A DNA stretch of 50,854 nucleotides, from NCBI GenBank assembly GCA_003162935.1, contig PLUW01000120.1, positions 130,706 through 181,559 of the forward strand, read 5' to 3'. Position numbers and translations under genes: made by a program. This stretch comes from Acidobacteriaceae bacterium (lineage in GTDB: Bacteria > Acidobacteriota > Terriglobia > Terriglobales > Acidobacteriaceae). Below the pieces are notes generated by a model. The model saw only the letters and a program-made list of their open reading frames with translations. It did no database searches and was not told where the DNA came from. Below, one piece after another: positions 15,092 through 47,993 of the stretch (positions within the stretch are counted from its first letter, which is position 1; the number at the start of each line of letters is the position of its first letter).

Positions 15092-15102
15092 ACGGAGCAT
15101 CA

Positions 15103-15918: not shown

Positions 15919-15937
15919 CGTTTCGGAGCTTGCCATC

Positions 15938-27925: not shown

Positions 27926-28984
27926 ATGCGTGGTAAAATTTTCTTGACCTTGCCCACGCCAAATCCAAATGATCGCAGGAACTCCCCTGTCTTCGTGATA
28001 GGCTGCCATCGCTCTGGCACCAACCTCCTCTATGACATGTTGTTGTCATCCGGAGGCTTTGCCATGTACCGCGGGTATTTGCCCGTCTATAAGATTCTGA
28101 TCCCCCGGCACGGTTCGATGGCGAGCCTCGCCAACCGCGAGAAGATTGTCGCCACCTGGCTTCGCAGCAAGGGCTTCCGCCGCACCGGACTGGGAGCCGA
28201 GCTTTTCTCTCCCCGCATCGTGAACGAATGCAGGACCGGTGGCGACTTCATTCGTCTCGTAATGGACTCCGTCACCGAGCGCCAGGACGCTCACCGCTGG
28301 GCGTTTCATGACGGCGATAACGTCCTGCACTTCCGGCGCATCAAGAAAGACATTCCGAACGCTTTGTTCGTGCACATCATCCGCGACGGTCGCGACATCG
28401 CTCTTTCGCTCAAGAAAATGGCCGGCTTCGCTCCCCTGCCCTGGGATCGCAGCGAAACCAATAGTCTGGTCGCCACCGCCCTCTACTGGGAGTGGATGGT
28501 GCGCCGCGGACGCGAAGCCGCAAAAGTCTTCCCCGCCGATTACATCGAGATCCGCTACGAAGATCTGGTTACGAATCCCCACGAAACTCTGGGCAAACTG
28601 GGCAGTTTCATCGACCACGATCTCGACTACGATCGGATCCAGAATTCCACCGGGGGTACACTTTCCAAGACCAATTCATCCTTCCGCGAAGAGGGGAAGG
28701 AAAAGATCAATCCGCTGGGCCGCTGGAGGGAACGCCTTTCCCCGGAGAACATCGCCGCTCTCGAAGGCGCTGTGGGCGCTTGTCTCGAGGAAAACGGCTA
28801 CCAGCTCTCGCTTCCCGCGCCCGAGCGCCGCATCAGCTTGCGCAGTTCCTGGATGCGCCTAATGTACCCCGCATTTCTCGGCACCAAGCTCTGGCTCAAA
28901 TTGAATACTCCTGTGGGCCGCCTCGCCAATGTTTCCGCGCTAGAGCTCACGGAAGACCCTTGCAAGATGCCGAGCGGGTGCTGA
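27926..28984 (+). CDS. Sulfotransferase-family protein (Sulfotransfer_3 type)
   Basis: A 352-residue member of a sulfotransferase family different from the SULT-type genes in this window. The 5'-phosphosulfate loop is FVIGCHRSGTNLLYDML, and HIIRDGRDIALSLKKM is the 3'-phosphate motif. PAPS is the expected donor; such proteins often act on carbohydrates or lipids. The ATG at 27926 is preferred to a GTG at 27902 because the family begins close to its P-loop, but no strong ribosome site supports either. The stop is one base before the HAD-ACP cassette's start, so they are coupled. Confidence 0.82.
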   Translation: MRGKIFLTLPTPNPNDRRNSPVFVIGCHRSGTNLLYDMLLSSGGFAMYRGYLPVYKILIPRHGSMASLANREKIVATWLRSKGFRRTGLGAELFSPRIVNECRTGGDFIRLVMDSVTERQDAHRWAFHDGDNVLHFRRIKKDIPNALFVHIIRDGRDIALSLKKMAGFAPLPWDRSETNSLVATALYWEWMVRRGREAAKVFPADYIEIRYEDLVTNPHETLGKLGSFIDHDLDYDRIQNSTGGTLSKTNSSFREEGKEKINPLGRWRERLSPENIAALEGAVGACLEENGYQLSLPAPERRISLRSSWMRLMYPAFLGTKLWLKLNTPVGRLANVSALELTEDPCKMPSGC

Positions 28985-28985
28985 C

Positions 28986-30878
28986 ATGCCCCACCAGCAT
29001 AATCCGGCGACCTTGCGCGCGGAAGTCAACCGCCTCCTCGCCGAAGGAGCACCCGACGCAGCCTCTCGACTCCTCGCCGAGCTCTGGCGCCGCGAACCCG
29101 GATCGGCCACCGCCAGTTTCGTCACCTCGCGCGTCGATCAACTTCGCGACAAACTCCCGCTCGCTAGATTCAAGCTAGCCATTCTCCGCTCCTTCACGGT
29201 CGAGCCCATCGTACCCCTGTTGCGTGCCGAGGCTTTCACGTACGGCATCGATCTCGAAGTCCACGTTGGCGACTTCAATGCCTACGTGCAGGATATCGTC
29301 GACGCTAACAGTTCTCTCTATCGTTTCGCCCCCAACGCGGTCATTCTGGCAGTTCGCACCGAGGATGTGGCACCGGATCTCGTCCGCGAGTTCGCCGATC
29401 TCTCGCCCGAAGTCGCCCACCAAGCCGCGGCTCGCGTTACGCGCGGCTACGAGCAGTGGATCAGCTCGTTCCGCCAGCACAGTCAGGCCGCGCTCGTTGT
29501 CCACGCGCTCGAACGACCCACTCATCCGAGTCTCGGCGTTCTTGACGGCCAATCCGAAACCGGCCAATCCGGACTCACGCGCCAGATCAACCGCGAACTG
29601 CGCCTCATTGCCGCAAGCCACCACGGCGTCTACGTACTCGATTACGACGCGCTGGTCGCGCGTCATGGCAGCCAGCACTGGCACGACGAACGCAAATGGC
29701 TGACTGCCCGCCTGCCCATCGCCGCGGGCCATCTGCTCCACATGGCCCGCGAGTGGATGCGCTTCGTAGTGCCTCTCGTCGGCCGCACTGCTAAATGTCT
29801 GGTTATCGATCTCGACAACACGCTCTGGGGCGGCGTCATCGGCGAAGACGGCATGGCCGGAATCAAGGTCGGTCCCGAATATCCCGGCGCGGCCTATCAG
29901 GCGCTGCAACGCGCGCTGCTCGATCTTTCGCGCAAGGGAATCCTGCTCGCCGCGTGCAGCAAGAACAATCTCGACGACGCCATGGAAGCCCTCGACAAGC
30001 ATCCGGGGATGCTCGTGCGCTCCCAGAACTTCGCCGCGTTGCGCATCAACTGGACCGACAAATCCCAGAACCTTCGCGAGATCGCCCAGGAACTTAAGAT
30101 CGGCCTCGACTCGCTCGCCTTCCTCGACGACAATCCTTTTGAGCGCGAGCAGGTCCGCGCCGCGATGCCCGAAGTCACCGTCATCGATCCCTCGCAGAAT
30201 CCGCTCGATTACGCCGCCATCGTACGCGACTGTCCCGTCTTCGAACGCCTTACCTTATCCGACGAAGATCAACAGCGCACCGCCATGTACGCCGCGCAGC
30301 GCCAGCGTGCCGGCGCCGAACAGAGCTTCCAATCGAAGGAAGACTTCTTCCGCTTCCTCGAGCAGGAAGCCGAACTGAATCCCGTATCGGACCTTACGCT
30401 CGCGCGCGTCGCCCAACTCACGCAAAAGACCAACCAGTTCAACCTGACCACGCGCCGCTACACCGAGTCCCAGATTGCGGAGATGGCGAAGCATCCCGCC
30501 TGGAACATCTTCTCCATCCGCGTGCGCGACCGTTTCGGCGATCACGGCATCGTCGGCGTCGCCATCACTCATGACCAGGGCGACCAATGTGAAGTCGATA
30601 CCTTCCTTCTAAGCTGCCGCGTCATCGGCCGCACCATCGAAACCGCGCTCCTCGCCCACATCGCAAAAAGCGCAGCCGAGCGCGGCTGCAAGCGCTTGGT
30701 CGGTCGGTTCCTGCCGACGAAGAAAAATGCTCCGGCGCGCGATTTCTACTCCCAGCACAAATTTGGACTCGTGGAAAAGAATGGCGAAGGTTCCCTCTGG
30801 TCGCTCGATCTCACCCGCCAGCAAGTGCCCTTTCCCGAATGGGTTAAACTAATCACGGCGCAGGGAGCACACGATTGA
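28986..30878 (+). CDS. FkbH-like HAD-IIIC family protein
   Basis: A 630-residue protein of the FkbH-like class, in which a HAD-fold phosphatase removes phosphate from an activated glycerate (1,3-bisphosphoglycerate in studied cases) and loads the glyceryl unit onto an acyl carrier protein. The first 260 residues form a putative SGNH-like or accessory domain (DLEVHVGDFNAY, PSLGVLDG). The HAD core holds DLDNTLWGG with Asp275 and Asp277 as nucleophile and acid, CSKNN, and LDDNPFERE. The C-terminal 200 residues look GNAT-like (QLTQKTNQFNLTTRRY, FLLSCRVIGRTIE). Stop overlaps the ACP start. A glyceryl donor is inferred from the family and the ACP. Confidence 0.85.
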   Translation: MPHQHNPATLRAEVNRLLAEGAPDAASRLLAELWRREPGSATASFVTSRVDQLRDKLPLARFKLAILRSFTVEPIVPLLRAEAFTYGIDLEVHVGDFNAYVQDIVDANSSLYRFAPNAVILAVRTEDVAPDLVREFADLSPEVAHQAAARVTRGYEQWISSFRQHSQAALVVHALERPTHPSLGVLDGQSETGQSGLTRQINRELRLIAASHHGVYVLDYDALVARHGSQHWHDERKWLTARLPIAAGHLLHMAREWMRFVVPLVGRTAKCLVIDLDNTLWGGVIGEDGMAGIKVGPEYPGAAYQALQRALLDLSRKGILLAACSKNNLDDAMEALDKHPGMLVRSQNFAALRINWTDKSQNLREIAQELKIGLDSLAFLDDNPFEREQVRAAMPEVTVIDPSQNPLDYAAIVRDCPVFERLTLSDEDQQRTAMYAAQRQRAGAEQSFQSKEDFFRFLEQEAELNPVSDLTLARVAQLTQKTNQFNLTTRRYTESQIAEMAKHPAWNIFSIRVRDRFGDHGIVGVAITHDQGDQCEVDTFLLSCRVIGRTIETALLAHIAKSAAERGCKRLVGRFLPTKKNAPARDFYSQHKFGLVEKNGEGSLWSLDLTRQQVPFPEWVKLITAQGAHD

Positions 30879-31126
30879 CCGCTACTGTTTTCGATCAGAT
30901 TCGAACCATGGCATCCGATCTTTTCGGAGTTCCCGTGGATCAAATCAGCGCCGCGTCTTCGGCGCAGACCCTCGATAACTGGGACTCGATCCAGCATCTG
31001 AACCTGGTACTCGCCGTCGAGGAAAAGTTCGGCCTGCAACTTTCTCCGGAAGAAATCGAGCAAATGAAAACTGTCGGCGACACGGCAAAACTGGTGGAAA
31101 GCAAACTCCAAGCCGCTCCGAGGTAG
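30875..31126 (+). CDS. Acyl carrier protein
   Basis: An 83-residue acyl carrier protein. The phosphopantetheine-attachment Ser sits in DSIQHLNL (usually DSLxxVEL), at about residue 37, in an acidic four-helix protein with EEKFGLQLSPEE downstream. The TTG start overlaps the HAD gene's TGA as TTGA, with GGGAG 7 bases upstream, so translation is coupled. The partner acyltransferase follows after 3 bases. Dedicated carrier rather than the fatty-acid ACP is likely given the gene order. Confidence 0.88.
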   Translation: MTATVFDQIRTMASDLFGVPVDQISAASSAQTLDNWDSIQHLNLVLAVEEKFGLQLSPEEIEQMKTVGDTAKLVESKLQAAPR

Positions 31127-31129
31127 TTC

Positions 31130-32248
31130 TTGGCCATCGTCATCCAGCCTTATCGCCAGGAACACGAGCCGGCCGTCCAGGAATTCAATCGCCGGCTCCA
31201 GCAATCCTCAGGCGACCCCAATCTCGTATTTTCTCAAAACGCCATTCCGCGCTGGCTGCCGCCCGCCAGCAACAATCCAGTTTGGAATGAGTTCTTCGTC
31301 GCGGTCGAAGGATCGTCGGTGCGAGGCGCGTACGCCCTCAAGCAGGAACAGATCTTCACCCGTGGAAAAGGTCTGCACCGCGTGGCCTGCTACCATCACC
31401 CGCTTTCCGAGGGAATCGTCGATCGCGCCTATGCGAGCGTTGGCGCGCTGCTGGCGCGAGACGCGCTGGCGCGCCAGCCCTTTCTCTACGCGCTCGGCAT
31501 GGGCGGCGCTGATCGTCCCATAGCAAAAATGCTGAAGGCACTCGGTTTCAGCCTGACGCCCATTCCGTTTTACTTTCACGTTTTGCATCCGGCCAAGTTT
31601 CTCCTGGAAATGCAAGCCCTGCGCCAGAAGCGATGGCGCGCAATCTTGATGAACTTAGCCGCCGCGACTGGCACGGGTTGGCTCGCCATCAAGTCGGCGC
31701 AAGCAGTCGCGCGGCTGCGCGGACGCCCTGGGAACTTCACGGCCGAAGAAGTCTCCGAATTTTCGGATTGGACCGAGAACCTCTGGAATCAGGTCAAGGA
31801 CACCGTCAGCCTGGCGGCCGTTCGCGACGCGAACACCCTGCGACTCTTGTACCCACCCCAGGCCGCCAATATCAAGCGCTTGCGCATCAGCCGCAACGGC
31901 GCTGCGCTTGGATGGGCAATTGTCGGCGAGCGCCGCCAAGACGCCAAGTTTGGAAACATGCGCGTGGGCTCAATCGTGGATTGCTGGGCATCGCCGGAGA
32001 ACTCTGCGGCAGTGGTCCGCGCAGCGATTCAGTCATTGGAGAAAGAAGGCGTCGATCTGATTGCCTCCAATCAGAGTCATCAAGGGTGGTGTGGTGCTTT
32101 CGGGAGCGCCGGCTTTCTGAAAGGCCCCTCGACCTTCGTCTTTGCCGCCTCCAAAAGACTGACGGAATTATTGCAGCCGCTCGACGAAACTCGACCGTCG
32201 TTTCACATCACTCGTGCCGACGGCGACGGGCTTCCCGCAAACTTCTAA
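31130..32248 (+). CDS. GNAT/FemAB-like acyltransferase
   Basis: A 372-residue protein that resembles a two-lobed GNAT-fold acyltransferase. Both halves contain the short Gly and Leu patterns of that fold (for example ALGMGGADRPIAKMLKALGF in the first half). It starts at TTG (31130), three bases after the ACP stop. Immediate coupling to the carrier protein suggests it takes the ACP-bound acyl group and moves it to a sugar or lipid. Family assignment is moderate and donor specificity is inferred. It meets the next sulfotransferase gene convergently, 6 bases apart, with no obvious terminator. Confidence 0.6.
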   Translation: MAIVIQPYRQEHEPAVQEFNRRLQQSSGDPNLVFSQNAIPRWLPPASNNPVWNEFFVAVEGSSVRGAYALKQEQIFTRGKGLHRVACYHHPLSEGIVDRAYASVGALLARDALARQPFLYALGMGGADRPIAKMLKALGFSLTPIPFYFHVLHPAKFLLEMQALRQKRWRAILMNLAAATGTGWLAIKSAQAVARLRGRPGNFTAEEVSEFSDWTENLWNQVKDTVSLAAVRDANTLRLLYPPQAANIKRLRISRNGAALGWAIVGERRQDAKFGNMRVGSIVDCWASPENSAAVVRAAIQSLEKEGVDLIASNQSHQGWCGAFGSAGFLKGPSTFVFAASKRLTELLQPLDETRPSFHITRADGDGLPANF

Positions 32249-32254
32249 CTGCGG

Positions 32255-33115
32255 CTAGTTTCCCTTGTGTACCAGCGTTTCCTTGCTCGCCTCCGACGAC
32301 AACGGATAGCCCAGCGAAATCATCACGTGCCCCCAGGCCGCCTCGATCTGCGCCACCGATTGCGGGGGAAGCACGGCCTTCCAGCCGCCCGATGCGGCTT
32401 TCCGGACGAACGGCTTATCCTGGCGTGTGTAGCGAGTCTGTACCCACTTCTTGCCTTGCGTTTCCTCCAACTGGCGCATCCGGTCGGCGGAGCTGAGTTC
32501 CGCAGCCCGCACCAGCCGCTCCCGCGTCGGCTCAATGCCCAGCAGTTTGGCCACTTTGACCAACTCGCGCGCCGGATCTTCAATCATGTCCTCATACCGC
32601 AACACGATAAAACCATCTCTGCCGCTGCGGGTGCTCAACCAGCTGGTCACGTGGTCGCCCCAGTTTGCCAGGCGGTCCCAGATCTTTCCTTCGATCCACG
32701 GCGGCAAAAATTGTTCGATCGGACAATTGTCGCTCATCGCCCTCTGCTTCATTTCCCAGTGATAGTTCGACACGGCCACGTCTCTGGGATCGCGAACGAT
32801 GTAAATCACCCGCTTGTACCTCGGGTCGAAGACCTCGTGACTCTTCAGGATGCGCGGCCGCGGCAAGTGCCGCAGGTAATAGTCGCCGTGCTTGTACATG
32901 TCGGGAACCAGCCGCTCCACATTCAGAAACGTGACCGCCTCTTCCGTATGCGCGAGATTGCCCACCAGAAACCGGGTCCACGTATTGCCCGATCGCGGGT
33001 AAGAAGTCAGAAACACGTCATCGGGGAAAATCGTGATGTCGCGCTCGATGCGCAGCGTCCGGAACAGCACATCGTTCACCCGCGACAAATGCTTCAGACC
33101 CCTTTTGATCAACAT
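32255..33115 (-). CDS. SULT-type sulfotransferase, copy 3
   Basis: A 286-residue PAPS-dependent sulfotransferase of the same type as the two at the left end. Here the P-loop reads SYPRSGNTWTRFL, with Arg in place of the usual Lys, a natural variant. KSHEVFDPRYKRVIYIVRDPRDVAVSNYH holds the catalytic His and 3'-phosphate contacts, and the C-terminus has SADRMRQLEETQGKKW and FVRKAASGGWK. AAGGAG lies 8 bases before the ATG. It follows FemAB by 12 bases on the same strand, so a shared transcript is expected. The acceptor is unknown. Confidence 0.87.
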   Translation of the reverse strand: MLIKRGLKHLSRVNDVLFRTLRIERDITIFPDDVFLTSYPRSGNTWTRFLVGNLAHTEEAVTFLNVERLVPDMYKHGDYYLRHLPRPRILKSHEVFDPRYKRVIYIVRDPRDVAVSNYHWEMKQRAMSDNCPIEQFLPPWIEGKIWDRLANWGDHVTSWLSTRSGRDGFIVLRYEDMIEDPARELVKVAKLLGIEPTRERLVRAAELSSADRMRQLEETQGKKWVQTRYTRQDKPFVRKAASGGWKAVLPPQSVAQIEAAWGHVMISLGYPLSSEASKETLVHKGN

Positions 33116-33127
33116 GCAATATTCTCC

Positions 33128-34156
33128 TTACCCGGATGTCGCATCGTCGCGCTGGCTGCGCTCCCCATGCAACCAACCAAGAAATTTCTGTTTGCGCGCA
33201 AACATATTGCGAGCCTCGTCCCGTAGTGCGCCGACAATCTGATAGCGCGACATCGTGAACCACGGCACGCGGTGCGGAACACAACCATACTTTTCTTTGT
33301 ATGTGCCCTCGCCTCCCCAATCATAGACGGTGACTCCGCGCCCCTTCCAGTAACGAAGGGCATACCAATGGCATGCTTCGTTGGGTCGCAGATTCTGATG
33401 CGATCGAAAACTCGCGTTTCCCCAAAACTCCGCAATCTTATTGAATCCAGGGTAGATTCCGGTCGCGATGCACTTCCCTTCCGCATCGCGCGCCCGAATC
33501 AGCAGCACGTTGCCGCTCGGCCCGACGTGCTTCACCAGCGATCGCACCCGCTCCACCGTATACGTAGGGACCAGCCCCTGCTTGGCGAATACGTCTTTCA
33601 GTTGCTCGTAGTATTCGTCGGCAAAGGCGAGGTCGTGCGCTTCTTCAATCGTCACGCCGCTCTTTTCCGCCTTGCGAATGCAGCGGCGGCACGCGCTGTC
33701 CATTCCGTTAAACAACTCTTCTTCAGACCGAGCCAGATCCGTGCGGTACGAGGCGTAATACTCGGCCTTGAACCCCAGTCCTTCGCCGTCCGCCACCGTA
33801 AAGTGCGGATCGGAGACTTCCATGTGCAGGCATTTCAAATCGTCCCACGCAAACTTAACGAGGGCTTCCAGGGCCGCGCGCCGCGAAACACCGGGCCGCA
33901 GATTGAACCCGATGTAAGGCGTGGTCCAGCCAGGAAACGAACTGCCCAGCACCTTCATGCCAAACTTCGAAAACGTGAGGCCCGTAAAGTATCCAACGAC
34001 GTCGGTCCCCTCCCGCAGCTCCGCGAGCACCGGAGTCGCCCCCTGCGCCTCCTCCACAAATTGCACCCACGCGCGCGTCTGGAAGACCGTGCGATCCTCG
34101 AAGCTGTCGAGCAGCTTCCAGTCCGCCGTCTTGCCGTCAATCTGGTGCAGCTTCAT
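33128..34156 (-). CDS. FemAB-like protein (XrtA-associated type)
   Basis: A 342-residue protein with the tandem GNAT-like fold of FemAB and BioF2-like acetyltransferases. Members of this kind occur in exosortase A-associated exopolysaccharide loci (TIGR03019). Landmarks are FQTRAWVQFVEEAQGA near the N-terminus, a basic SACRRCIRKAEKSGVTIEE central helix, and YDWGGEGTYKEKYGCVPHRVPW near the end. It probably transfers an acyl or aminoacyl group onto a glycan or lipid intermediate. The ATG has GGGGAG directly upstream at a short distance. It lies 173 bases after a deacetylase gene on the same strand. Confidence 0.83.
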   Translation of the reverse strand: MKLHQIDGKTADWKLLDSFEDRTVFQTRAWVQFVEEAQGATPVLAELREGTDVVGYFTGLTFSKFGMKVLGSSFPGWTTPYIGFNLRPGVSRRAALEALVKFAWDDLKCLHMEVSDPHFTVADGEGLGFKAEYYASYRTDLARSEEELFNGMDSACRRCIRKAEKSGVTIEEAHDLAFADEYYEQLKDVFAKQGLVPTYTVERVRSLVKHVGPSGNVLLIRARDAEGKCIATGIYPGFNKIAEFWGNASFRSHQNLRPNEACHWYALRYWKGRGVTVYDWGGEGTYKEKYGCVPHRVPWFTMSRYQIVGALRDEARNMFARKQKFLGWLHGERSQRDDATSG

Positions 34157-34329: not shown

Positions 34330-35337
34330 CTAGACCGCCCGCCCGAGAAAGGTGCATTGCAGGTTCCAGGTGAACTGATCCAGATCGTTGGCCGCATAGA
34401 TCCGCTTCAGAGCCAGCGGATCGTCTCCCGCGCGCACCGGTCCGGCCATCGTCAGTGCCGCGGACTTGAATCCCGCCTCTCGCGTAAGCTCCAGCGTTTG
34501 CTTCGACCACTGCGGATTCAGCGCAGGGTGCGGATACGAGAAATGGTCGATGGGTTCCCTGATCTCTTCTTCCAGTCTCTTCTTACAACCCATGATCTCC
34601 GAGCGCGCCTCGCTCTCGCTCACTTGCGCCACATTCGGATGGGAGAGCGTGTGACCGCCAATGGTGTGCCCTGCCTTTCTCAAGGCACGCACCTGCTCCC
34701 AATCCATCATGAATCCACGCTTCGCCTGAACCGGTTCAGTCTCCAGCGCTCTTTCGACTCCGCCGACGAAATCCTGCTGCACTTTGCCCGTCAATGCCGC
34801 GCCCCAGTCCCAAGCTGACGCCCTCGCCGCCTTGCGCTCTTCCGGTATGGTCAGATCGTAGGTTCGCTGGCTTTCAGGATGACTCCACCTGGACTGGCGC
34901 GTGCTGTTAAAAGCGTAACGGATCCGACAGTACCAAGGTAATATTCCGTTTTCCACCGCATCGACCATAATGTAGAAGGTCGAGGGGATGCCGTAGCGCT
35001 TGAGAATCGGCAGCGCTACTTCGTAGTTGTCGGCAAAACCGTCGTCAAAAGTCACGGCAACTGCCCGCGCCGGAAGTTCGCGGCCAGACCGGGCAAACTG
35101 CGCAACATCTTCCACGGTGACTGGGGAGAAATGCTGCGCCAGGGCCTTCATATGCGCTTCGAAGTTGGCGCGCGACTGCGAAATACCGAGAATATGGTCC
35201 GTAGCTTCTGGCTCTTCGAGGATCGAATGGTACGACAGGATTACTGCGGCGGGAGGGAAAAAGCGCCTTGCCGCGCTGAAAATTGGACTGCGGACAAGCG
35301 CTTTCTTGAACCAGCGCTTGGATGTCGACCTCAGCAC
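34330..35337 (-). CDS. Polysaccharide deacetylase (XrtA-associated type)
   Basis: A 335-residue NodB/CE4-type deacetylase resembling those in exosortase A exopolysaccharide loci (TIGR03006). Motif 1 AVTFDDGFADNYEVAL holds the catalytic Asp and metal ligand; GGHTLSHPNVAQ gives the His pair, and HFSYPHPALN follows. No signal peptide is visible. The GTG at 35337 is chosen because GGGGAG sits 8 bases upstream; the open frame reaches 35550 but that overlaps the divergent methyltransferase. It probably deacetylates a sugar of the repeat unit, at the lipid-linked stage. Confidence 0.82.
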   Translation of the reverse strand: MLRSTSKRWFKKALVRSPIFSAARRFFPPAAVILSYHSILEEPEATDHILGISQSRANFEAHMKALAQHFSPVTVEDVAQFARSGRELPARAVAVTFDDGFADNYEVALPILKRYGIPSTFYIMVDAVENGILPWYCRIRYAFNSTRQSRWSHPESQRTYDLTIPEERKAARASAWDWGAALTGKVQQDFVGGVERALETEPVQAKRGFMMDWEQVRALRKAGHTIGGHTLSHPNVAQVSESEARSEIMGCKKRLEEEIREPIDHFSYPHPALNPQWSKQTLELTREAGFKSAALTMAGPVRAGDDPLALKRIYAANDLDQFTWNLQCTFLGRAV

Positions 35338-35515
35338 TCTCAACGCTCCCCGGGCCCCGAAACGCGCAACGGCCTCGTGATAGTATACCGATTTGGTGGG
35401 TTCCAACCGCAGCGGGCGGACACCCAAGACTACAGAATAAGCACGTGTGAAGGCGTCAATCGCAGCCGATTTGTGTCGCCTGCATTCGCTAACTGATTGA
35501 TAAAACGAGGGCAAC
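35338..35515. promoter_or_regulatory. 178-base divergent promoter region
   Basis: It lies between the deacetylase (minus) and the methyltransferase (plus). On the minus strand TATACTAT (around 35390) could act as -10, with a poorly spaced TTGGAA upstream, so transcription of the deacetylase would begin downstream of the longer in-frame starts. GAGGG at 35507-35511 is the ribosome site of the methyltransferase. Confidence 0.3.
35346..35351 (-). promoter_or_regulatory. Ribosome site deciding the deacetylase start
   Basis: GGGGAG on the minus strand, 8 bases before the GTG at 35337. It is the only good match upstream of any in-frame start. Confidence 0.5.
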
Positions 35516-36316
35516 GTGAGTTCTAAGCAACAAGTAAACGATCTGTTCACCCAGACTGTTGACGACTGGGCCCGGTATTACGACGACCCGGCGCCCCCGA
35601 ATCTGACCGCTCAAAATTTCGTGTCGCGACGCCGTTTTGCCATCCAGATGATCGAAGACCGGCTGGCCAAAGGGTCCAAGATTCTCGATGTGGGCTGCGG
35701 AACCGGCCATCTTGCCGCCGAACTTGCCCGCCGCGGCTACGATACCTGGGGCACGGATTTATCGGCCGGCATGGTGGACTACGCCCGCGCCAACTATAAC
35801 CAGGATCGTTATCAGGTAGGCGACATCGAGAAGATTCCATTTCCCGACAATACTTTCGATGGCATCGTGTGCCTCGGCGTGGTGGAGTACCTCGCCAGCG
35901 ACGGCCCGGCGCTAACCGAGATTCATCGTGTGCTCAAGCCGGGCGGCTGCGCGGTCATCACCACTCCCAGCAGCATTTGTCCTTTTTTCTATCTCGATCG
36001 TGTGCTCGTTCGCACTCGTTTCGCCATCCGTCCGGCGACCAGCGTGGTGCGAAGCCTGTTTGGCGGCAAGCCGCGTCCCGCTCAGACATTGCCCAAAGTT
36101 GAACATCGCCGCTATCGCCGCGGCAGTTGGGAGAAGCTCCTGCGCTCTCACCAGCTCGAACTCGAGGATTGGGTTTGTCACGCTTGGGGATGCTATGCCG
36201 TGGAGCGTTTCTTCCCTCAGGGAGGGTTCTGCCGCGCCAGCGATCAGTTCGCTCGCAACCGAGCCGTCAACTGGCTCGCCTCCGATCAACTGGTTCGCGT
36301 CCGCGCGGTCAAATGA
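35516..36316 (+). CDS. Class I SAM-dependent methyltransferase
   Basis: A 266-residue methyltransferase. Motif I is ILDVGCGTGHLAAELA, followed by WGTDLSAGMVDYARANY and motif post-I FPDNTFDGIVCLGVVEYL, which fit the UbiE/Coq5-like group. It starts at GTG (35516) with GAGGG 4 bases before. It is a lone plus-strand gene between two minus-strand polysaccharide units, and its end is 10 bases from the end of a GT4 gene. O-methylation of a sugar is plausible; the acceptor is unknown. Confidence 0.83.
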   Translation: MSSKQQVNDLFTQTVDDWARYYDDPAPPNLTAQNFVSRRRFAIQMIEDRLAKGSKILDVGCGTGHLAAELARRGYDTWGTDLSAGMVDYARANYNQDRYQVGDIEKIPFPDNTFDGIVCLGVVEYLASDGPALTEIHRVLKPGGCAVITTPSSICPFFYLDRVLVRTRFAIRPATSVVRSLFGGKPRPAQTLPKVEHRRYRRGSWEKLLRSHQLELEDWVCHAWGCYAVERFFPQGGFCRASDQFARNRAVNWLASDQLVRVRAVK

Positions 36317-36326
36317 AGACATTCGG

Positions 36327-37427
36327 TCAGTGATTTAGTACTTCGCGATAGACGTTGAGCCACTGCCCGCGCACCGCGTCCCACGTACATTTGCGCGATT
36401 CTTCGTAAGCATTCTGTGCCAGCCGCGCAGCCAATTCCGGATCGCGCAGCAGGCGAATGACGTTCGCAGCAAGCGTTTTCTCGTCGCCAACCGCTGACAG
36501 CAACCCGGTGCGCTCGTTTTCAACAAGATATGGCATCGACTCCGGCGAAGTCGTCACCACGGGCGTCCCCGCCCCAAATGCTTCGATCACCGAAACCGGC
36601 ATATTGTCGAGCCACGAAGCGTTGATAAAAATATCGGCGTTGTCATAACAATCCCCGATCTGCTGTCGCGAAGCCACTCCCATGAAGTTGACGCCGCTAA
36701 GCTTCAGATCCGAAGCCAACTTCCGGATCTCCGCTTCAAGCGGACCACTGCCCACCAGATCGAGCCTCGCCTCCGGATATTCTTTCTTCACTTCCGCGAA
36801 CGCCTTAACGACCACATCTACGCTGTAGTACTCCGAGAACCCGCGCGTGCACACCAGATGCGGCCCAAGCGGCCTGCGCTCGCGATAGCGAAATTGGGAA
36901 AGATCGACCAGGTTGGGAACCACAACCGCCGGTAGCCCAAATTCGCGAAACACATCCACCAGGTATCCAGAGGGCACGGCGATGCAGTCCACACGCGACA
37001 TCACGAACTTTCCCGAACGGAAGCGCTGCAAGTGATCGCGCGCTTCTCCGCTCCGGTAGTTAATGATGGTTCTTGTACCGCGCAGCTTCGCGAAGAACCA
37101 CGCTGGCGCGGGCGCAAGCAGAAACGACCAGTACGACGCGGAGAAGATGTGCGCCACATCGACGTCTTTCAGCCCGCGCCACAAGCGCCAGAAGTAAATC
37201 GGCTCGCGCAGAACTGTGCGCAGACCCGGAATTTTCTCCGCCCACGCAAGTGCACCCGGTAGCGCAGGGTCGACGCCGATGAAGCAGACCTCGACCTCCG
37301 GATCGTTCTGCCAAAGGCGCATTAGCAGATCGGCCTGTACCGCTTGCCCGCCAACATAACGCAGGCTCGGCGCGACGATCGCAACTTTCATTCGCGTGGG
37401 CGCTTCCGGCTTGACCGCTCCGCTCAT
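36327..37427 (-). CDS. GT4 family glycosyltransferase
   Basis: A 366-residue retaining GT-B glycosyltransferase. It opens with MKVAIVAPSLRYVGGQA (glycine-rich acceptor-side loop), and the C-terminal half has LVGSGPLEAEIR and INASWLDNMPVSVIEAFGAGTPVV, including the E-x7-E motif that binds the donor. The ATG at 37427 overlaps the preceding gene's stop as ATGA, so the two are coupled; an ATG at 37391 would drop 12 residues. It is the last gene of the right-hand operon. Donor sugar unknown. Confidence 0.88.
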   Translation of the reverse strand: MSGAVKPEAPTRMKVAIVAPSLRYVGGQAVQADLLMRLWQNDPEVEVCFIGVDPALPGALAWAEKIPGLRTVLREPIYFWRLWRGLKDVDVAHIFSASYWSFLLAPAPAWFFAKLRGTRTIINYRSGEARDHLQRFRSGKFVMSRVDCIAVPSGYLVDVFREFGLPAVVVPNLVDLSQFRYRERRPLGPHLVCTRGFSEYYSVDVVVKAFAEVKKEYPEARLDLVGSGPLEAEIRKLASDLKLSGVNFMGVASRQQIGDCYDNADIFINASWLDNMPVSVIEAFGAGTPVVTTSPESMPYLVENERTGLLSAVGDEKTLAANVIRLLRDPELAARLAQNAYEESRKCTWDAVRGQWLNVYREVLNH

Positions 37428-38581
37428 ACGCACGGGTTCCGCCGTTTCTGATTGAGAAGTCTCACGTAAAGATCTTCGTACTGCCGGCAGACGCGATCGA
37501 CGCTGTAGTTCTCTTCCGCAAACCGTTGCGCGTTCTCGCCTTGCTCCTTGCGAAGGCTGGCATCCAACAAAAGGCGGCAAACCGCGCTCGCGAATTCGCG
37601 TTCGTTGCCCGCAGCCACCAGCGCTCCGCGTTCCGCATCCACCAGTTCGCCGTTGCCGCCAACATCGTAAGCGACTACGGGCAAGGCGGCTGCCTGTGCC
37701 TCCAGGATCGCATTGGATAGACCCTCGGAATCGGATGTGAGCACAGCAACGTCGGTCGATGCCAGAACAGCGGAAACATCGCGGCGATCGCCGAGAAAAA
37801 CGACCCGCTCCCCAAGCCCCAGCGCAGTGGCTTGCCGCTCCAGTTCAGGACGCAACGGTCCATCGCCCACCAACACGAATTCCACCTCCGGCATGCTCTT
37901 GCGAATGTCGGCGGCGATCCGCAAGAACCCGGCATGGCCCTTGTACTCGGCGTTCATGCGCGCCACCATCACCACGCGCAGAACCCCAGACCTTCGCAGC
38001 AGCGCGGGCGATGCCCGCTCAAACACCTCCGCTGGAAGAGCGTTCCCAATGACCACCAGCTTTTCGGGCGCCACCCCCGCCGCCGCCAGGTAAGAGGCTC
38101 CAGCCCGTGAATTGCACACCACCGCGTTGCACCAGCGGAATGCCACCGCCTGCGCGCGATTTTGCGCCCGCGTCATCAAGTCGCCGAGTTGACGGTGGCT
38201 GCCGATGACAACCGGCACGCGCCCCAGACGAGCCGCTGGAATGAGCGTAAGGTTCGTGTAGAAATCGAAAGCATGGGCGATCTCAACATGGTTCCGCCGC
38301 AGATGGCGGGCCAGGTTGAGCCGCGTGCGCAGCGACTGCCATCCAAACAGGCTGTTGCCCAACGGAAATTGAGCGACCTCCCCAAACTGGCCGGCGAGGG
38401 GGCCGCGAGGGTTGACGCATCCCAAATGAACCTGAAACCTGGCGGCGCGGGCATTTTGCGCAAGCACCGCGAACTGCCGCTCCGATCCACCTGTCTCAAA
38501 CGTGTTGATCATGAGAAACAGGTTGATCGGCGATCTGTCGAGACGGCTCGCCGTTATGCTGGTAGCGTTCGCGGCGCCCAC
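37424..38581 (-). CDS. GT4 family glycosyltransferase
   Basis: A 385-residue GT-B enzyme. FLMINTFETGGSERQFAVLA matches the usual GT4 N-terminus, and LVGDGPLRPELERQA plus TSDSEGLSNAILEAQAAALPVVA (E-x7-E) define the donor-binding half. It starts at GTG (38581) with a G-rich ribosome site upstream and sits 4 bases after the asparagine synthase gene. It would add one sugar to the repeat unit; linkage and donor cannot be read. Confidence 0.87.
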   Translation of the reverse strand: MGAANATSITASRLDRSPINLFLMINTFETGGSERQFAVLAQNARAARFQVHLGCVNPRGPLAGQFGEVAQFPLGNSLFGWQSLRTRLNLARHLRRNHVEIAHAFDFYTNLTLIPAARLGRVPVVIGSHRQLGDLMTRAQNRAQAVAFRWCNAVVCNSRAGASYLAAAGVAPEKLVVIGNALPAEVFERASPALLRRSGVLRVVMVARMNAEYKGHAGFLRIAADIRKSMPEVEFVLVGDGPLRPELERQATALGLGERVVFLGDRRDVSAVLASTDVAVLTSDSEGLSNAILEAQAAALPVVAYDVGGNGELVDAERGALVAAGNEREFASAVCRLLLDASLRKEQGENAQRFAEENYSVDRVCRQYEDLYVRLLNQKRRNPCV

Positions 38582-38585
38582 CCGG

Positions 38586-40559
38586 TCATTCCCCCACCGG
38601 GGCCGACGCGAACACGGCAGGGCCCGGAACCTTCCGCCGGGAATCGGCGACCACCGGCAGCGAGAACAGTCCGGCGGGCTTGACGTATTTCTCCAGGAAA
38701 TTGCGGTGCCACAGTTCGAACATCAGCAACCGCCAGAGCCGCCCCGTGTTGGCTCGACCGCGAAGAAGATAATCGTCCATCACCGTGCGAATTCCGCTCG
38801 GCTGGAAGTAGCCCCGTTCGAGCGTGCGCGGCTCCAGCAGAATCATCAGCATGTCTTTCAGTTCGTGGCGCATCCAGTGCACCAGCGGGAGCGAAAATCC
38901 CCGCTTTTCCCGGTACAGCGTCTCCCGCGGCACGCCGATTCGTTCAGCAAGCTTGCGCAAAATGTATTTCTGCTCCCGGCCGCGCAGCTTCCACTCCGAT
39001 CCGAGCCCGGTGGCCCACTCGACAAAAACGTGGTCCAGGATCGGAACGCGTACCTCGAGCGAATTCAGCATGCTCATGCGGTCAACCTTGGTCAGAATGT
39101 CGTCCACTAAGTAGGTTTTCGTGTCGACGTAGAGTAACTGGCTCACCGGTTCGTCGGTCGGCGCGGCGGCAAAGCGCCGCCGCAGAACATTGCCGGGATC
39201 GTCCCCGCGCCGAAGAATCGCGCGGAACTCGTCCGAGAGCAGCTCCGTATCGCGTTCGAAATCGGGCAGAAACGAAATCCGGTCGATATACCGCTCCTGC
39301 CACGGCAGCGAAAGATTGTAGCTCAAGGTGCGACCCCGCATCCCGCGAGGCACGTGGGGGAATATCCTCTCGCGATAGAACTTGCGGGCCCACTCCGGAA
39401 TGTGCTCGAAAATCTTGCGGTCGGCGTGAATGCGGTAGCGATCGTAGCCGGCAAAGATTTCATCGCCGCCGTCGCCCGAGAGCGCGACCGTGACGTGCTG
39501 CCGCGCCATCTGCGACACATAGTACGTCGGCAGCATCGACGAATCCCCAAATGGCTCTTCCAGCGAACTGGTCAGATGTTCGACGGTCTGCACCACATCC
39601 GGCTCGAGAATCATTTCGTGATGCTCGGTGCCAAACTTTTCCGCAACCATGCGCGCATAGCGCGCTTCGTTGAAGTCGTCTTTCGTGAACCCGATGGAAA
39701 ACGTCTTGACCGGCTTGGAGCTGGCGCGCGCCATCAGGGCCACGATGGTCGAGGAATCCGTGCCGCCGCTCAGAAACGCGCCCAGCGGCACGTCTGAAAT
39801 CAGCCGGATCTTCGTCGCTTCCAACAGCCGCTGCTCCAGCTCTTCCAGACACTCTTCTTCGCTTTTCGGAAAATGCGTGTTGTATCGCGGCAGGTCCCAG
39901 TACTGCCGGATCGTGATCTCCCCGCGTTCGAACTCCAGCAAGTGTCCGGCGGGCAGCTTCTGAATGCCGGTAAATGCGGAAATCGGCTCCGGCACGTATT
40001 GATAGTAGAGATATTCCAGCAGCGCTTGCCCGTTGACTTCGGCCAATTCCGGCGCCACCGCCAAAATACTTTTCACCTCCGACGCGAAGTACAGGTTGCC
40101 CTTGTGCAGCGCGTAGTAGAGCGGCTTCTTGCCCAGGCGGTCGCGGGCCAGCGTCAGCTTGCGCTTCGTCTTGTCATAGAGGGCCAACGCAAACATGCCG
40201 CGCAGTTTCTTAACGCAATCGGCGCCCATCTCTTCGTAGAGGTGGATGATGACTTCAGTATCGGTCTTGGTGTAGAAGCGATGGCCTCGGCTTTCCAGTT
40301 CCGGCCGCAGCTCGGGAAAATTGTAGATTTCCCCGTTGAACACGATCCACGCATTACGATCCTCGTTAAACACGGGCTGGTGGCCGCCCGAAAGATCGAT
40401 AATCGACAACCGCCGCATGCCAAGCCCCGCGCCGTCTGCCACGTAGATGCCTTCATCGTCCGGGCCCCGGTACATGATCTGATCGCACATATGGCGCACG
40501 AGGGCTTCGCTAATATTGCTCTCGCGGCTGGCGCTGACGACTCCGGCGATTCCACACAT
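38586..40559 (-). CDS. asnB: Asparagine synthase-like amidotransferase (exosortase-associated type)
   Basis: A 657-residue glutamine-dependent amidotransferase. Cys2 in MCGIAG is the glutaminase nucleophile; VFNGEIYN and RGPDDEG complete that domain. LSGGTDSST (about residue 262) is the ATP pyrophosphatase loop of the synthase domain, so both active sites look intact. Close relatives accompany XrtA exopolysaccharide genes (TIGR03108-like), where they probably amidate a uronic acid or similar carboxyl sugar rather than aspartate. It lies between GT4 and the unrecognised gene in the same operon, which supports a glycan role (inference). Confidence 0.88.
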   Translation of the reverse strand: MCGIAGVVSASRESNISEALVRHMCDQIMYRGPDDEGIYVADGAGLGMRRLSIIDLSGGHQPVFNEDRNAWIVFNGEIYNFPELRPELESRGHRFYTKTDTEVIIHLYEEMGADCVKKLRGMFALALYDKTKRKLTLARDRLGKKPLYYALHKGNLYFASEVKSILAVAPELAEVNGQALLEYLYYQYVPEPISAFTGIQKLPAGHLLEFERGEITIRQYWDLPRYNTHFPKSEEECLEELEQRLLEATKIRLISDVPLGAFLSGGTDSSTIVALMARASSKPVKTFSIGFTKDDFNEARYARMVAEKFGTEHHEMILEPDVVQTVEHLTSSLEEPFGDSSMLPTYYVSQMARQHVTVALSGDGGDEIFAGYDRYRIHADRKIFEHIPEWARKFYRERIFPHVPRGMRGRTLSYNLSLPWQERYIDRISFLPDFERDTELLSDEFRAILRRGDDPGNVLRRRFAAAPTDEPVSQLLYVDTKTYLVDDILTKVDRMSMLNSLEVRVPILDHVFVEWATGLGSEWKLRGREQKYILRKLAERIGVPRETLYREKRGFSLPLVHWMRHELKDMLMILLEPRTLERGYFQPSGIRTVMDDYLLRGRANTGRLWRLLMFELWHRNFLEKYVKPAGLFSLPVVADSRRKVPGPAVFASAPVGE

Positions 40560-40568
40560 GATCGGATC

Positions 40569-41741
40569 TTACCCTTTCTGGCTCACCGGCACGGGCCTGG
40601 AATTTTCTGGCATAGCCACCGCCGCCAATCGTTGGAAGCGATAGTCGCGATAGTCGCCGGGGTTCCCCCCCCGCCCATCGCAGGCTGCCAGCAGGATGTT
40701 CGTCATCTCGCGCGCACTCACAAAGTGCAAAGTCTCTTTTCGCTCCGGAGCGCCGCCCACCAGATCCTCCATAAATTTGCCGAATGCCTCGCCCGCAACC
40801 GCGTCCCTCTGGTTCGGATGCATCCCGTGACAATGCAGCTTGATGAAAATCCAGTCGGGACGCCCTGCCACCCCGACTTGCGCCTGCTTCCACAGCGCGA
40901 GGCGCTCGATGGTCATCGCACTCCTTTCGTTGATTTCTCCATTTTCAATCGCTGGCTTCCTGCGGCGTAGCGTGCGGCCGATATCGGCGACGAGTGGGCC
41001 TTGGATGATCAGCGGAAAGGTCTTGGCCGCCCGTCCGGCAACCAAGTCGTTGCCTTTGCGATGAGGTGCGGCCTGATCCAGCGGCAGCGCGCATTCGTAG
41101 ACGCTATTGATCTTCCCGATTTGCGCCCGGTTTAAAACCGAGGTCGGCATGGTCAGGTCCGCATAGCACCCGGTTTCCGCGAGAATTTGCATCTCCGAAT
41201 CCACGCCGCACAGCTCGCCTCCGGCGGAATTGGCCAGCGCCCAATTTCCGTGCACGAAGGCATAGCGCGCCTCCGCCGATCCCTCCTCCACCGCAAGACA
41301 CCTATGACGAAACGCCAAGATGTCCCGAAATTCCACCAACTGCCGTCGCGTATTTTCGGCGGTGTCCGGTTCGAAAATGCCATGGTGCAGATGCACTTCA
41401 ATCTCGCCCCACCCTTGGCGGCAGTGCTCGGCAAGCGCCGCCACTAGCCCTTCGTCGTACTGTTCGGCGGGATAGAAATACGTGTGAACAAAAGGCCGGC
41501 CCTCTTCATCCCTCCACCGGTCGGCGATCTTGGGATATTCGCGGCACCACCATTCCACCCGGCGCTCCTGTTCGAAGCGCGAGACGCGTTTGCGTCCGTC
41601 CTGGGCGTCAATCGCCGGCTCAAAGTGATCCGCCAAAACAAAAATGAGATGCACTGGACCCGCCACCGACGAGCGCAACCCGCGCCACATCGCCCCGGGC
41701 AGCACTTTCCTCGCATACGCAAGTTTGTTGACAAGGCCCAT
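40569..41741 (-). CDS. Unrecognised protein, possibly a deacetylase-like metalloenzyme
   Basis: A 390-residue protein I cannot assign to a named family. It carries His- and Asp-rich blocks placed like those of NodB-type enzymes: IFVLADHFEPA (about residues 32-42), HTYFYPAEQY, EIEVHLHHGIFEP, YAFVHGNWAL and a late IKLHCHGMHPNQRD. The blocks suggest a metal site in a TIM-barrel-like deacetylase fold. No signal peptide is visible. The ATG at 41741 is used; the frame is open to 41861 but the added part looks unstructured. It sits between methyltransferase and asparagine synthase in the operon, so a sugar-modifying role is likely. Confidence 0.6.
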   Translation of the reverse strand: MGLVNKLAYARKVLPGAMWRGLRSSVAGPVHLIFVLADHFEPAIDAQDGRKRVSRFEQERRVEWWCREYPKIADRWRDEEGRPFVHTYFYPAEQYDEGLVAALAEHCRQGWGEIEVHLHHGIFEPDTAENTRRQLVEFRDILAFRHRCLAVEEGSAEARYAFVHGNWALANSAGGELCGVDSEMQILAETGCYADLTMPTSVLNRAQIGKINSVYECALPLDQAAPHRKGNDLVAGRAAKTFPLIIQGPLVADIGRTLRRRKPAIENGEINERSAMTIERLALWKQAQVGVAGRPDWIFIKLHCHGMHPNQRDAVAGEAFGKFMEDLVGGAPERKETLHFVSAREMTNILLAACDGRGGNPGDYRDYRFQRLAAVAMPENSRPVPVSQKG

Positions 41742-41890
41742 TTCAATCCATGAATCCAAAGATTCGGTTCCAGTCCTAAGTACCGTCTGATTACATCCAG
41801 CAAGCTTCCCACTGTCATCCTGCGCGAGCGACGGACCTTTGCATTCTGCGCGCGCCACCACCGGCGTTGCGGATCTCTGGGCGGCAACCT

Positions 41891-42859
41891 CTAGCGCAGC
41901 GGCTTTCGTCCCCGAACCGCAATCGAGAATTCCCCGATTCGCATGTCCTCCATCCCCATCGCCTCGTACCAGCGGAACACTTGCTCATAGGTATGCTTGG
42001 ATTGGTACTTCGGTGAATACCAATCGAAGGTGTCCAGCATCCGCGCCTCTGGAGTGCTTTGCCGGTTCACCGGAAACACATGATGCAGCAGACCCGCGGC
42101 CGGACGCCCCACCAGCGGCACTTTCCGCAACACCTCTTGCGTATTGTAGAGAACCGGCACCGCGACCTTCAGGACACTGTGCAGCGTTTCGGGCTTCATT
42201 TTGTGCGTGTAGCGTCGCCAGAAATCGCTGAAGCGATACCACTTGTTGTATCCGCTGTACAGCCATACCGCGAGAATGCCGCCCGGCTTCAGATACTTGC
42301 CCAGCGTCTTCACCGCCGCTTCACAATCCGGTGTGTGATGAAGCACTCCCATGCTGTAGATAAGATCGAAGCTATCCGGAGCGAACGGAAGCGCGAATAC
42401 ATCCGCCTGGAAGGCCACGAACTCGCGATCCGCCAGGTTCTTCGCTGCCACTTCCGCCGCCGCGCTCAGATCGATGCCGACCACCCGCGCGCCCCACGCC
42501 GTGGCAACCTCGGCGAACCGTCCCATGCCGCAACCCACATCCAGAACCAGCTTACCCTTGAGATCTTCGGGCCGTAGCGCCGTCTTCATCCGGAAATTGA
42601 GGTCGGCCTCGCGTACGTCGTCGTGATCGAGTTGCGTCTTCTGATAGCGGTGCCACTGGAATCCAAAACTCGCGGCATAGTGCTGCGCATCGACGAAACG
42701 CGCAATCCCATTGACAAAGGGATACGCGCGCTTGCAGGCGGAGCACACATAGCCTCCGCCACCGTCGCTATCGAGCTTCGATCCGCAGTTCAGGCAACGC
42801 AGTATTGCCTGTAATTCAGCGGGCAGGAGTGACTGCGCCTGTTTTTCCTCGATCGGCAT
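41891..42859 (-). CDS. Methyltransferase with N-terminal zinc ribbon
   Basis: A 322-residue methyltransferase. Residues about 20-45 form a zinc ribbon (CLNCG ... CSAC, then KRAYPFVNGIARFV) like Trm112-type leaders. The Rossmann core has LVLDVGCGMGRFAEVA, VGIDLSAAAEVA and FDLIYSMGVLHHTP. The ATG at 42859 is preceded by GGAGG and lies inside the end of the O-antigen ligase gene, overlapping it by 44 bases. The open frame extends to 43018, but that overlap would be larger. It probably methylates a sugar or lipid-linked intermediate. Confidence 0.82.
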   Translation of the reverse strand: MPIEEKQAQSLLPAELQAILRCLNCGSKLDSDGGGGYVCSACKRAYPFVNGIARFVDAQHYAASFGFQWHRYQKTQLDHDDVREADLNFRMKTALRPEDLKGKLVLDVGCGMGRFAEVATAWGARVVGIDLSAAAEVAAKNLADREFVAFQADVFALPFAPDSFDLIYSMGVLHHTPDCEAAVKTLGKYLKPGGILAVWLYSGYNKWYRFSDFWRRYTHKMKPETLHSVLKVAVPVLYNTQEVLRKVPLVGRPAAGLLHHVFPVNRQSTPEARMLDTFDWYSPKYQSKHTYEQVFRWYEAMGMEDMRIGEFSIAVRGRKPLR

Positions 42860-44174
42860 AAACCTCCAGAAAATGACGGCCCCGTTTCGGCGGCGGTGGA
42901 AGCGCCGATCCCTGGCCTTGATCTTGTTCTTTGGTTGTCTGCAATAAAGTTGCCGTGAAAACCACCGCAAAATACGGGAAATACTGGTAGGCCTCCGGGG
43001 CAAACAGCGCGCCCACAATAAACCCCACCAGCGAACTGGTAAGCGCTCCCACGAACAGGATGACTTCGGTATCGAGATCGGTCCGCTTCCGCAGGATCTT
43101 CAGGTTCCGAAACGCTTTTCGGAAAAACAGCAGGTAAATAATGAGAACCGGAATGCCCCCTTCCGCGGCCACCTGAAGGTACGTCATATGAACGTCGCGC
43201 CACACACCCGAATATGTCGGAAAGTCGCCCACTCCGATGCCAAAAATGGGATACGCTTCGATGGCGTCAACCGCGCGGTACATCAGAAACTTGCGTTCTT
43301 CGTAGGATCCGTATGCCGACTGCTCCGTTGTAGTGGCGCCCGAGAGCGCCTGAAACCGATCGTAGAGTTTGCCGCCCGCCGTAAACATGATGAGCACGGC
43401 GGCTAACGCGGCCGTGACAATCAGGTACGGGCGCTTGCCCTTGATCGCGAAATAGTAGAGTGTGACGGTTCCGGAGATCACCAGGTTGATAAAACCGGCC
43501 CGCGAGGCAGTCACGAAGATCGTCAGCAGCATGACCAGCATGCCGCCGAGCCACACCGTTTTGACCAGAAAGCTCTTGGCCGTAACCATGAACGCCAGCG
43601 CAAAAGGCAGCGCCAGCACGATGGCGAAAGCCAGATCGTTCGGATTTGAGTAAATGCCTCCCAGCACGCCAGCCAGACGGTCCACACCACGGCCTTTCGC
43701 CAGAGCAGCCACGCAAGCCACCACCACCGACGAGGCTTGAATAAAAATGATCCGCCGCAAGCGTCCAAAACTGGTGATGAGCAGGAATACCATCACCCAG
43801 GCGATCCAAATCTTGGAAAAATCGATCGTCTTGGATACCGCCCCCCCCTTCCAAACCGGCGAGAGAAAACCGCCCATGAAAAGCAGGACGATCATGGTGA
43901 GCAGCAGCCACGCTTCCTTCGGAAGATCTTTGAACGTGCGTTTGGTGCGCCCGAAGCTCTTGAACAAGCCCCAGATCGCGAGGATGGCAGTAATTTTGGC
44001 GAGGGGAGCATACTTGAGGCCCGGCACCCAGTCTTCCGGACGCGCGCAATAGACCACAAAAAACGCACTCAGCCAGAAGAACGGCTTCTTGGTCGGGTCG
44101 GTCACCTCGAAGTAGCCGCGTCCTCTCGACACTCTCTCCGCCGGTGTCGCGTTGCCGCTCTCGCCAATCGCCAC
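42816..44174 (-). CDS. O-antigen ligase / polymerase family membrane protein
   Basis: A 452-residue polytopic protein with about ten to eleven membrane helices. The Wzy_C-type segment is FGIGVGDFPTYSG followed by VHMTYLQVAAEGGIPVLIIYLLFF, with the His and Glu expected of O-antigen ligases or polymerases. An N-terminal CARPEDWVPGL stretch recalls exosortase-associated ligases. It would polymerise or ligate the lipid-linked repeat at the outer face of the inner membrane. The GTG start has GAGGA upstream. It lies 44 bases after the GT4 gene. Confidence 0.82.
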   Translation of the reverse strand: MAIGESGNATPAERVSRGRGYFEVTDPTKKPFFWLSAFFVVYCARPEDWVPGLKYAPLAKITAILAIWGLFKSFGRTKRTFKDLPKEAWLLLTMIVLLFMGGFLSPVWKGGAVSKTIDFSKIWIAWVMVFLLITSFGRLRRIIFIQASSVVVACVAALAKGRGVDRLAGVLGGIYSNPNDLAFAIVLALPFALAFMVTAKSFLVKTVWLGGMLVMLLTIFVTASRAGFINLVISGTVTLYYFAIKGKRPYLIVTAALAAVLIMFTAGGKLYDRFQALSGATTTEQSAYGSYEERKFLMYRAVDAIEAYPIFGIGVGDFPTYSGVWRDVHMTYLQVAAEGGIPVLIIYLLFFRKAFRNLKILRKRTDLDTEVILFVGALTSSLVGFIVGALFAPEAYQYFPYFAVVFTATLLQTTKEQDQGQGSALPPPPKRGRHFLEVYADRGKTGAVTPAR

Positions 44175-44218
44175 AAATTCCTCTTTCCCTGGTTACGGCG
44201 GTGATCTGCCGACCGACG

Positions 44219-45472: not shown

Positions 45473-45478
45473 AACGGC

Positions 45479-47976: not shown

Positions 47977-47993
47977 TGGGACCTCGGTTCATT

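Follow-up and report, generated by a model that had tools for sequence, protein, structure and literature searches.

An FkbH, acyl carrier protein and acyltransferase cassette of many bacterial phyla, and its possible role in decorating an acidobacterial exopolysaccharide

The four-gene run and its FkbH enzyme

In the window, by which we mean the whole stretch of 50,854 nucleotides that was analysed, four genes at 27926-32248 follow one another on the forward strand. They encode a sulfotransferase (STa), an FkbH-type enzyme, a stand-alone acyl carrier protein (ACP) and an acyltransferase of an unannotated family that we term AT4. A gap of 1 base, a 4-base overlap and a gap of 3 bases separate them, exactly the order and spacing that the first-pass annotation had read, and this spacing suggests that they form one transcription unit. 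The genes and their motifs, all on the + strand, are as follows.

27926-28984, +: sulfotransferase STa (Sulfotransfer_3, model match 2.7e-24), first of the run and a lineage-specific addition
within 27926-28984, +: STa motifs read in the sequence, the PAPS-loop GCHRSGTNLL and RDGRDIALS
28986-30878, +: predicted FkbH-type HAD-IIIC acyl-ACP (probably glyceryl-ACP) synthase, matching TIGR01686 and FkbH_N
29808-29822, +: FkbH HAD motif I, D275-x-D277-x-T279, invariant in 11 relatives
29955-29957, +: FkbH Cys324 (CSKN), invariant in 11 relatives, candidate acyl-thioester or structural cysteine
30615-30617, +: FkbH Cys544 (SCRVIGR), invariant in 11 relatives, candidate acyl-thioester cysteine
30875-31126, +: stand-alone ACP (PP-binding, PF00550, 1.4e-07)
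30986-30988, +: ACP Ser38 in NWDSIQHL, predicted phosphopantetheine site; DS(I/V/M)QHL is conserved in relatives
31130-32248, +: AT4, by predicted structure an N-myristoyltransferase (NMT)-like tandem-GNAT acyltransferase of an unannotated family
32213-32245, +: AT4 C-terminal motif RADGDGLPANF, which ends the protein; tail length is fixed in 45 of 49 homologues

The open reading frame list starts STa at a GTG at 27902, and an in-frame ATG lies at 27926; the gene is syntenic in most acidobacterial loci. The FkbH protein scores 301.7 bits against TIGR01686, about twice the curated cut-off of 146.65, carries an FkbH_N domain in addition, and has 3slr (BF1531) as its closest solved chain. It is encoded once in the source genome (3.64 Mb, 83% complete). 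The HAD catalytic residues (the Asp pair D275 and D277, the Lys K359 and the DD pair D381-D382) and the cysteines C324 and C544 are all invariant across the 11 relatives, and both cysteines remain candidates for acyl attachment. The nearest solved ACP to the carrier protein is 2lml, and phosphopantetheinyl transferase genes are present elsewhere in the source genome. The studied FkbH enzymes, from tetronate and methoxymalonate pathways, act on 1,3-bisphosphoglycerate and a stand-alone ACP (PMC7489565); by analogy, the enzyme described here probably charges the ACP with a small hydroxy-acid, glycerate being the likely one.

Two further observations concern FkbH in relatives. One contig carries a second FkbH-ACP pair (L090, 15227-17259) about 4 kb past its first FkbH-ACP-AT4 set. 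In many relatives a VOC protein with a weak methylmalonyl-CoA epimerase match is encoded immediately 5' of FkbH (for example L121 7116-7652 and L089 7170-7625), and is a possible acyl-ACP epimerase; the window's own cassette has no VOC gene.

Sulfation, deacetylase and exopolysaccharide genes around the run

The following genes flank the run.

12186-13991, +: fused ATP-sulfurylase/APS kinase, Sat-CysC, for PAPS supply (NF004040, 931 bits)
14215-14985, +: TauE/SafE-type permease (PF01925, 7.2e-45)
15019-15918, +: CysQ-like phosphatase for PAP recycling, below the equivalog cut-off
15884-16720, +: polysaccharide deacetylase 1 (PF01522, 4.7e-25), with TFDDG and HSMTH motifs
32255-33115, -: second sulfotransferase, STb, convergent with AT4 (Sulfotransfer_1, 9.8e-37); nearest solved relatives in the SULT family
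33128-34156, -: FemAB-like protein (Acetyltransf_6 above cut-off, weak TIGR03019)
34330-35550, -: polysaccharide deacetylase 2 (PF01522, 2.6e-22)
36327-49193, -: XrtA-type exopolysaccharide genes, namely glycosyltransferases, AsnB-like amidotransferase, Wzy-like ligase, EpsB priming transferase and tyrosine autokinase

Within the exopolysaccharide locus the priming transferase scores 454 bits against TIGR03013 (EpsB_2; cut-off 393), and the TIGR03108 and stp models match below their own cut-offs. The locus also encodes, at 40569-41861 (-), a 430-aa protein without a family match, homologues of which occur close to AT4 in the loci of Chthoniobacter (L110) and Lysobacter (L116). A 1723-aa open frame without a convincing family match occupies 6529-11700 (+) of the window.

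Further SULT-type sulfotransferases are encoded at 999-1853 (-) and just left of the window (L141, 4919-5686, -), giving at least four in about 34 kb. Past the window end, on the same contig (L140, 12816-18609), stand GDP-mannose 6-dehydrogenase-like, heparinase II/III-like and AsnB-like genes, the heparinase-like gene apparently split across two frames. The first of these had been labelled UDP-glucose dehydrogenase, a label we narrowed since its nearest solved relative is GDP-mannose 6-dehydrogenase. A comparable sugar-nucleotide dehydrogenase, heparinase and AsnB-type set adjoins the cassette in relatives. From the sulfotransferases and their dehydrogenase and heparinase-like neighbours, we consider that the polymer probably contains uronate and sulfate, and that in this lineage the sulfotransferases, fed by the nearby Sat-CysC, probably sulfate that same polymer. 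No second ATP-sulfurylase was found in the source genome (83% complete). We did not retain the idea of a dedicated PAPS supply, because Sat-CysC is the sole ATP-sulfurylase found and may also serve assimilation.

These surroundings bear on a quite different reading of the run, in which the product served by FkbH and ACP is a small secreted molecule of tetronate-like or methoxymalonate type and the exopolysaccharide neighbours are incidental. Such a role would match that of the studied FkbH enzymes, and in other acidobacteria FkbH does occur inside open frames of polyketide synthase size (1814-2875 aa). Against it, the gene calls scanned in the window contain no PKS/NRPS, FabH or acyl-ACP dehydrogenase domains, and AT4, the sulfotransferases and the FemAB-like, sugar-nucleotide dehydrogenase and lyase-like genes are syntenic. 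We regard this reading as highly improbable. That an FkbH-loaded carrier works here outside a polyketide setting, as first proposed, and serves a glycan, is supported by the absence of PKS/NRPS domains from those gene calls, by the adjoining XrtA-type exopolysaccharide locus and by the conservation of the FkbH-ACP-AT4 trio described below.

The AT4 family and its loci

AT4 (372 aa) has no match in Pfam or NCBIfam. Sequence and profile searches of the PDB returned nothing, the profile retrieving no NMT chain among PDB sequences, and the family was absent from the plasmid collection searched. Its AlphaFold model (pLDDT 94.5) consists of two GNAT halves. In a Foldseek search with this model N-myristoyltransferases rank first, and 2wpx, a tandem GNAT of clavulanate synthesis, also ranks high. 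Structural alignment with the Candida albicans NMT gives a Z score of 20.0 and an rmsd of 4.6 over 305 residues, covering residues 1-365 of the model; over the NMTs as a whole the values are Z 18.8-20, rmsd 4.4-5.0 and 290-312 residues at 7-10% identity, and the alignment extends to the final residue of several of them. An NMT-like fold is common to many tandem GNATs. AT4 represents an unannotated family that spans many bacterial phyla and is predicted to have a fold like that of eukaryotic NMT. The fourth protein of the run had been described at first pass as GNAT/FemAB-like; the GNAT part of that description holds, as a tandem GNAT by predicted structure, and the FemAB part was rejected because neither a FemAB nor an Acetyltransf_6 model matches. 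FemAB structures do not appear among the 50 best fold matches listed for AT4, which in itself excludes nothing.

NMT uses its own C-terminal carboxylate as the catalytic base (PMC7048800), an arrangement called unique to NMT among GNATs (PMC4964394). Were AT4 to use its own carboxylate in this way, a C-terminus of fixed length would be expected, as in NMT. In 45 of the 49 homologues the chain ends 4-5 residues past R[A/G]DGDG or a one-letter variant, a motif whose presence was selected, since it was used in the AT4 scan, and whose distance to the chain end was not. The final two residues are usually Asn or His followed by Leu or Phe. The last ~10 residues of the model have low pLDDT (about 60-76), so that the modelled position of the carboxylate is uncertain. 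On the strength of the analogy with NMT, we hypothesize that the terminal carboxylate of AT4 may serve as its catalytic base.

Among 200 relatives, AT4 occurs in 24 genomes and FkbH over the cut-off in 53. FkbH lies within about 2 kb of AT4 in 18 of the 24 AT4-bearing genomes; given that no more than 53 of the 200 relatives carry FkbH at all, this proximity is not due to chance (Fisher p 2e-11 for co-occurrence, kinship ignored). A scan of genome contigs yielded 59 AT4 loci, mostly in metagenome-assembled genomes (MAGs), from Acidobacteriota, Planctomycetota, Verrucomicrobiota, Zixibacteria, Pseudomonadota, Bacteriovorax and others, with Lysobacter antarcticus GW1-59, Chthoniobacter flavus Ellin428 and Pelagibacteraceae bacterium AG-414-E02 among the named carriers. 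In 40 of the 59, spread over many phyla, FkbH is within 1.7 kb of AT4. Thirteen of the 19 loci without a nearby FkbH have another acyl supplier less than 8 kb away: an AMP-ligase (9), a 2-oxoacid dehydrogenase E1/E2 (2) or FabH (2). An acyltransferase would be expected to behave in this way, staying constant while its acyl source is exchanged. In some Planctomycetes the AMP-ligase is accompanied by LuxE and LuxC; loci L101, L105 and L113 combine AT4, ACP, AMP-ligase, LuxE and LuxC, and L113 has FkbH too.

The core of the cassette is the FkbH-ACP-AT4 trio. Sulfotransferases were found in 21 of the 59 loci, every one from acidobacterial records, and are therefore an addition rather than part of the core. 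The proposal that the acyl group is placed next to sulfate accordingly applies to the acidobacterial clade, and sulfate is not a defining feature elsewhere, where the trio, or a variant of it with another acyl supplier, often stands beside a deacetylase without a sulfotransferase. Two relatives (L082 and L084) hold Sat-CysC, TauE, CysQ, deacetylase, sulfotransferase, FkbH, ACP and AT4 inside ~11 kb. The FemAB-like gene is likewise present in 21 of 59 loci and syntenic in the acidobacterial ones, which would fit a scheme where the FemAB-like protein at 33128-34156 accepts the group from the ACP and AT4 performs some other step. We consider this scheme the least probable of those discussed here, as most non-acidobacterial loci keep FkbH, ACP and AT4 together without FemAB.

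Deacetylases are the other recurrent neighbours. In the window, deacetylase 1, whose TFDDG and HSMTH motifs are invariant and which has no obvious signal peptide, lies 11 kb from the cassette and adjoins it in several relatives; deacetylase 2 is on the opposite strand. A deacetylase, either a canonical CE4 enzyme or an unannotated companion, is encoded less than 8 kb from AT4 in 36 of the 59 loci. Within 8 kb of AT4 no recognised deacetylase was found in 23 loci and no recognised acyl supplier in 6, several of these being contig ends. The companion, a family of ~310 aa, stands beside AT4 at L128 9067-9999, L110 9019-9990, L116 8837-9997 and 15 more. Its predicted fold is CE4-like (matches include 3rxz, PdaC and ArnD), and by profile it matches the canonical deacetylase family weakly; the metal motif is changed and the position normally taken by the second His of HxxxH (motif 2) is not conserved, so that, judged from these residues, deacetylase activity of the companion is uncertain. 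Planctomycete AT4 loci contain a DegT aminotransferase, an enzyme that offers a second route to a sugar amine.

Because two kinds of deacetylase recur beside AT4, a lipid acceptor appears less likely than an amino-sugar, and of the two acceptors first suggested, glycan or lipid, we favour the glycan. The acyl group might be attached to a glycan hydroxyl as an ester rather than to an amine, the cassette remaining the same. GNAT-type enzymes are capable of O-acylation, and the 23 loci without a recognised deacetylase would agree with this; the recurrence of the two deacetylase kinds or an aminotransferase beside AT4 argues for the amine, as does the fact that NMT, the closest fold to AT4, is an N-acyltransferase. 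We judge the ester unlikely.

A departure from glyceryl is about as unlikely as the ester. Here the same decoration logic would operate with the acid of another phosphate donor, or with a glyceryl group modified on the ACP (for example to lactyl, or by epimerisation through the VOC protein). The methylmalonyl-CoA-epimerase-like VOC gene just 5' of FkbH in many relatives and the quite different acyl sources at other AT4 loci point in this direction; on the other side are the lack of that gene in the window's own cassette and the use of 1,3-bisphosphoglycerate by the studied FkbH enzymes in the literature library searched.

Proposed mechanism and comparison with known systems

From these observations, we hypothesize that the cassette carries out acyl decoration of an exopolysaccharide, in which FkbH makes glyceryl-ACP, a deacetylase frees an amine, AT4 forms the amide and sulfotransferases add sulfate; we hold this to be the probable reading, with real room for doubt. 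FkbH would load a glyceryl group onto the ACP from an acyl phosphate, for which 1,3-bisphosphoglycerate is the likeliest candidate. A CE4-type deacetylase would act on a cytoplasmic glycan intermediate and leave one of its N-acetyl amino-sugars with a free primary amine, and AT4 would move the acyl group from the ACP to this amine, probably with its own C-terminal carboxylate as base, to give an N-glyceroyl sugar. Sulfotransferases using PAPS from Sat-CysC would sulfate the same polymer, which Wzy/EpsB-type machinery would then assemble and export. Starting from what is seen directly, namely gene identities, conservation, gene order, predicted folds, the fixed C-terminus and the swap of suppliers, we infer that the acyl group is glyceryl, that an amine accepts it, what serves as catalytic base and in which order the steps occur. 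The first-pass annotation, with its glycan decoration by an FkbH-loaded ACP, pointed in the right direction and is partly supported overall.

A broader and more tentative proposal, which we think less likely than not, is that AT4 proteins constitute a phylum-spanning family of NMT-fold N-acyltransferases of surface glycans with an ACP donor, their own C-terminal carboxylate as base and interchangeable suppliers (FkbH, AMP-ligase/LuxE, 2-oxoacid dehydrogenase, FabH), and that the acidobacterial product is a sulfated polymer with uronate and N-glyceroyl groups, which would be a bacterial counterpart of heparinoid modification. The cassette ties FkbH, familiar from antibiotic pathways, to polysaccharide chemistry, and a family unnamed in the searched libraries gains a concrete hypothesis of function. 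If this is right, the N-acyl groups of glycans would be predictable from the supplier adjoining AT4, bacteria would have a catalytic arrangement like that of NMT, and acidobacteria that are abundant in soil would show a new trait, a sulfated, glyceroylated exopolysaccharide that could affect soil sulfur and carbon.

Every type of reaction involved has precedent; neither their combination nor the AT4 family is described in the literature and databases searched, and we found no description of FkbH being used for O-antigen or polysaccharide in the open-access literature. The cassette shares FkbH and a stand-alone ACP with the glyceryl-ACP module of tetronate and methoxymalonate pathways (PMC7489565), but lacks a FabH-like ring closer, dehydrogenases and PKS, and has instead a tandem-GNAT transferase and an exopolysaccharide locus. 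N-glyceroyl sugars themselves have precedents on bacterial surfaces. Neisseria PglB2 makes such a sugar, a glyceramido acetamido trideoxyhexose, on the pilin glycan, like the product proposed here; it is, however, an ATP-grasp domain fused to a phosphoglycosyltransferase, and FkbH and ACP are not mentioned in the portion of the source consulted (PMC11130364). The Pragia fontium O-antigen is likewise a polysaccharide with an N-glyceroyl amino-sugar, the D-glyceroyl group being amide-linked, and the repeat listed in the portion of the source consulted is without sulfate (PMC10609480). The flagellin glycosylation islands of Aeromonas (ACP, AMP-synthetase, LuxE, LuxC) hold the same kind of supply set as the three Planctomycete AT4 loci named above, but AT4 and FkbH are not mentioned in the sections of that source we drew on (PMC7874193).

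The proposed set of functions has a precedent in that of the Nod factor enzymes NodB, NodA and NodH, in which deacetylation, ACP-dependent N-acylation and sulfation act on one glycan (PMC5080398). Unlike the Nod system, the cassette would use a short hydroxy-acyl group from FkbH rather than a fatty acid, and would act on a polymer rather than an oligosaccharide; a NodC-type synthase was not identified here, and AT4, at 372 aa, is by predicted structure a tandem GNAT that no family model covers. With eukaryotic NMT, AT4 has in common a predicted whole-length tandem-GNAT fold (Z 20) and a fixed chain end, whereas it is bacterial, shares 7-10% identity, and probably takes its acyl group from an ACP and gives it to a sugar.
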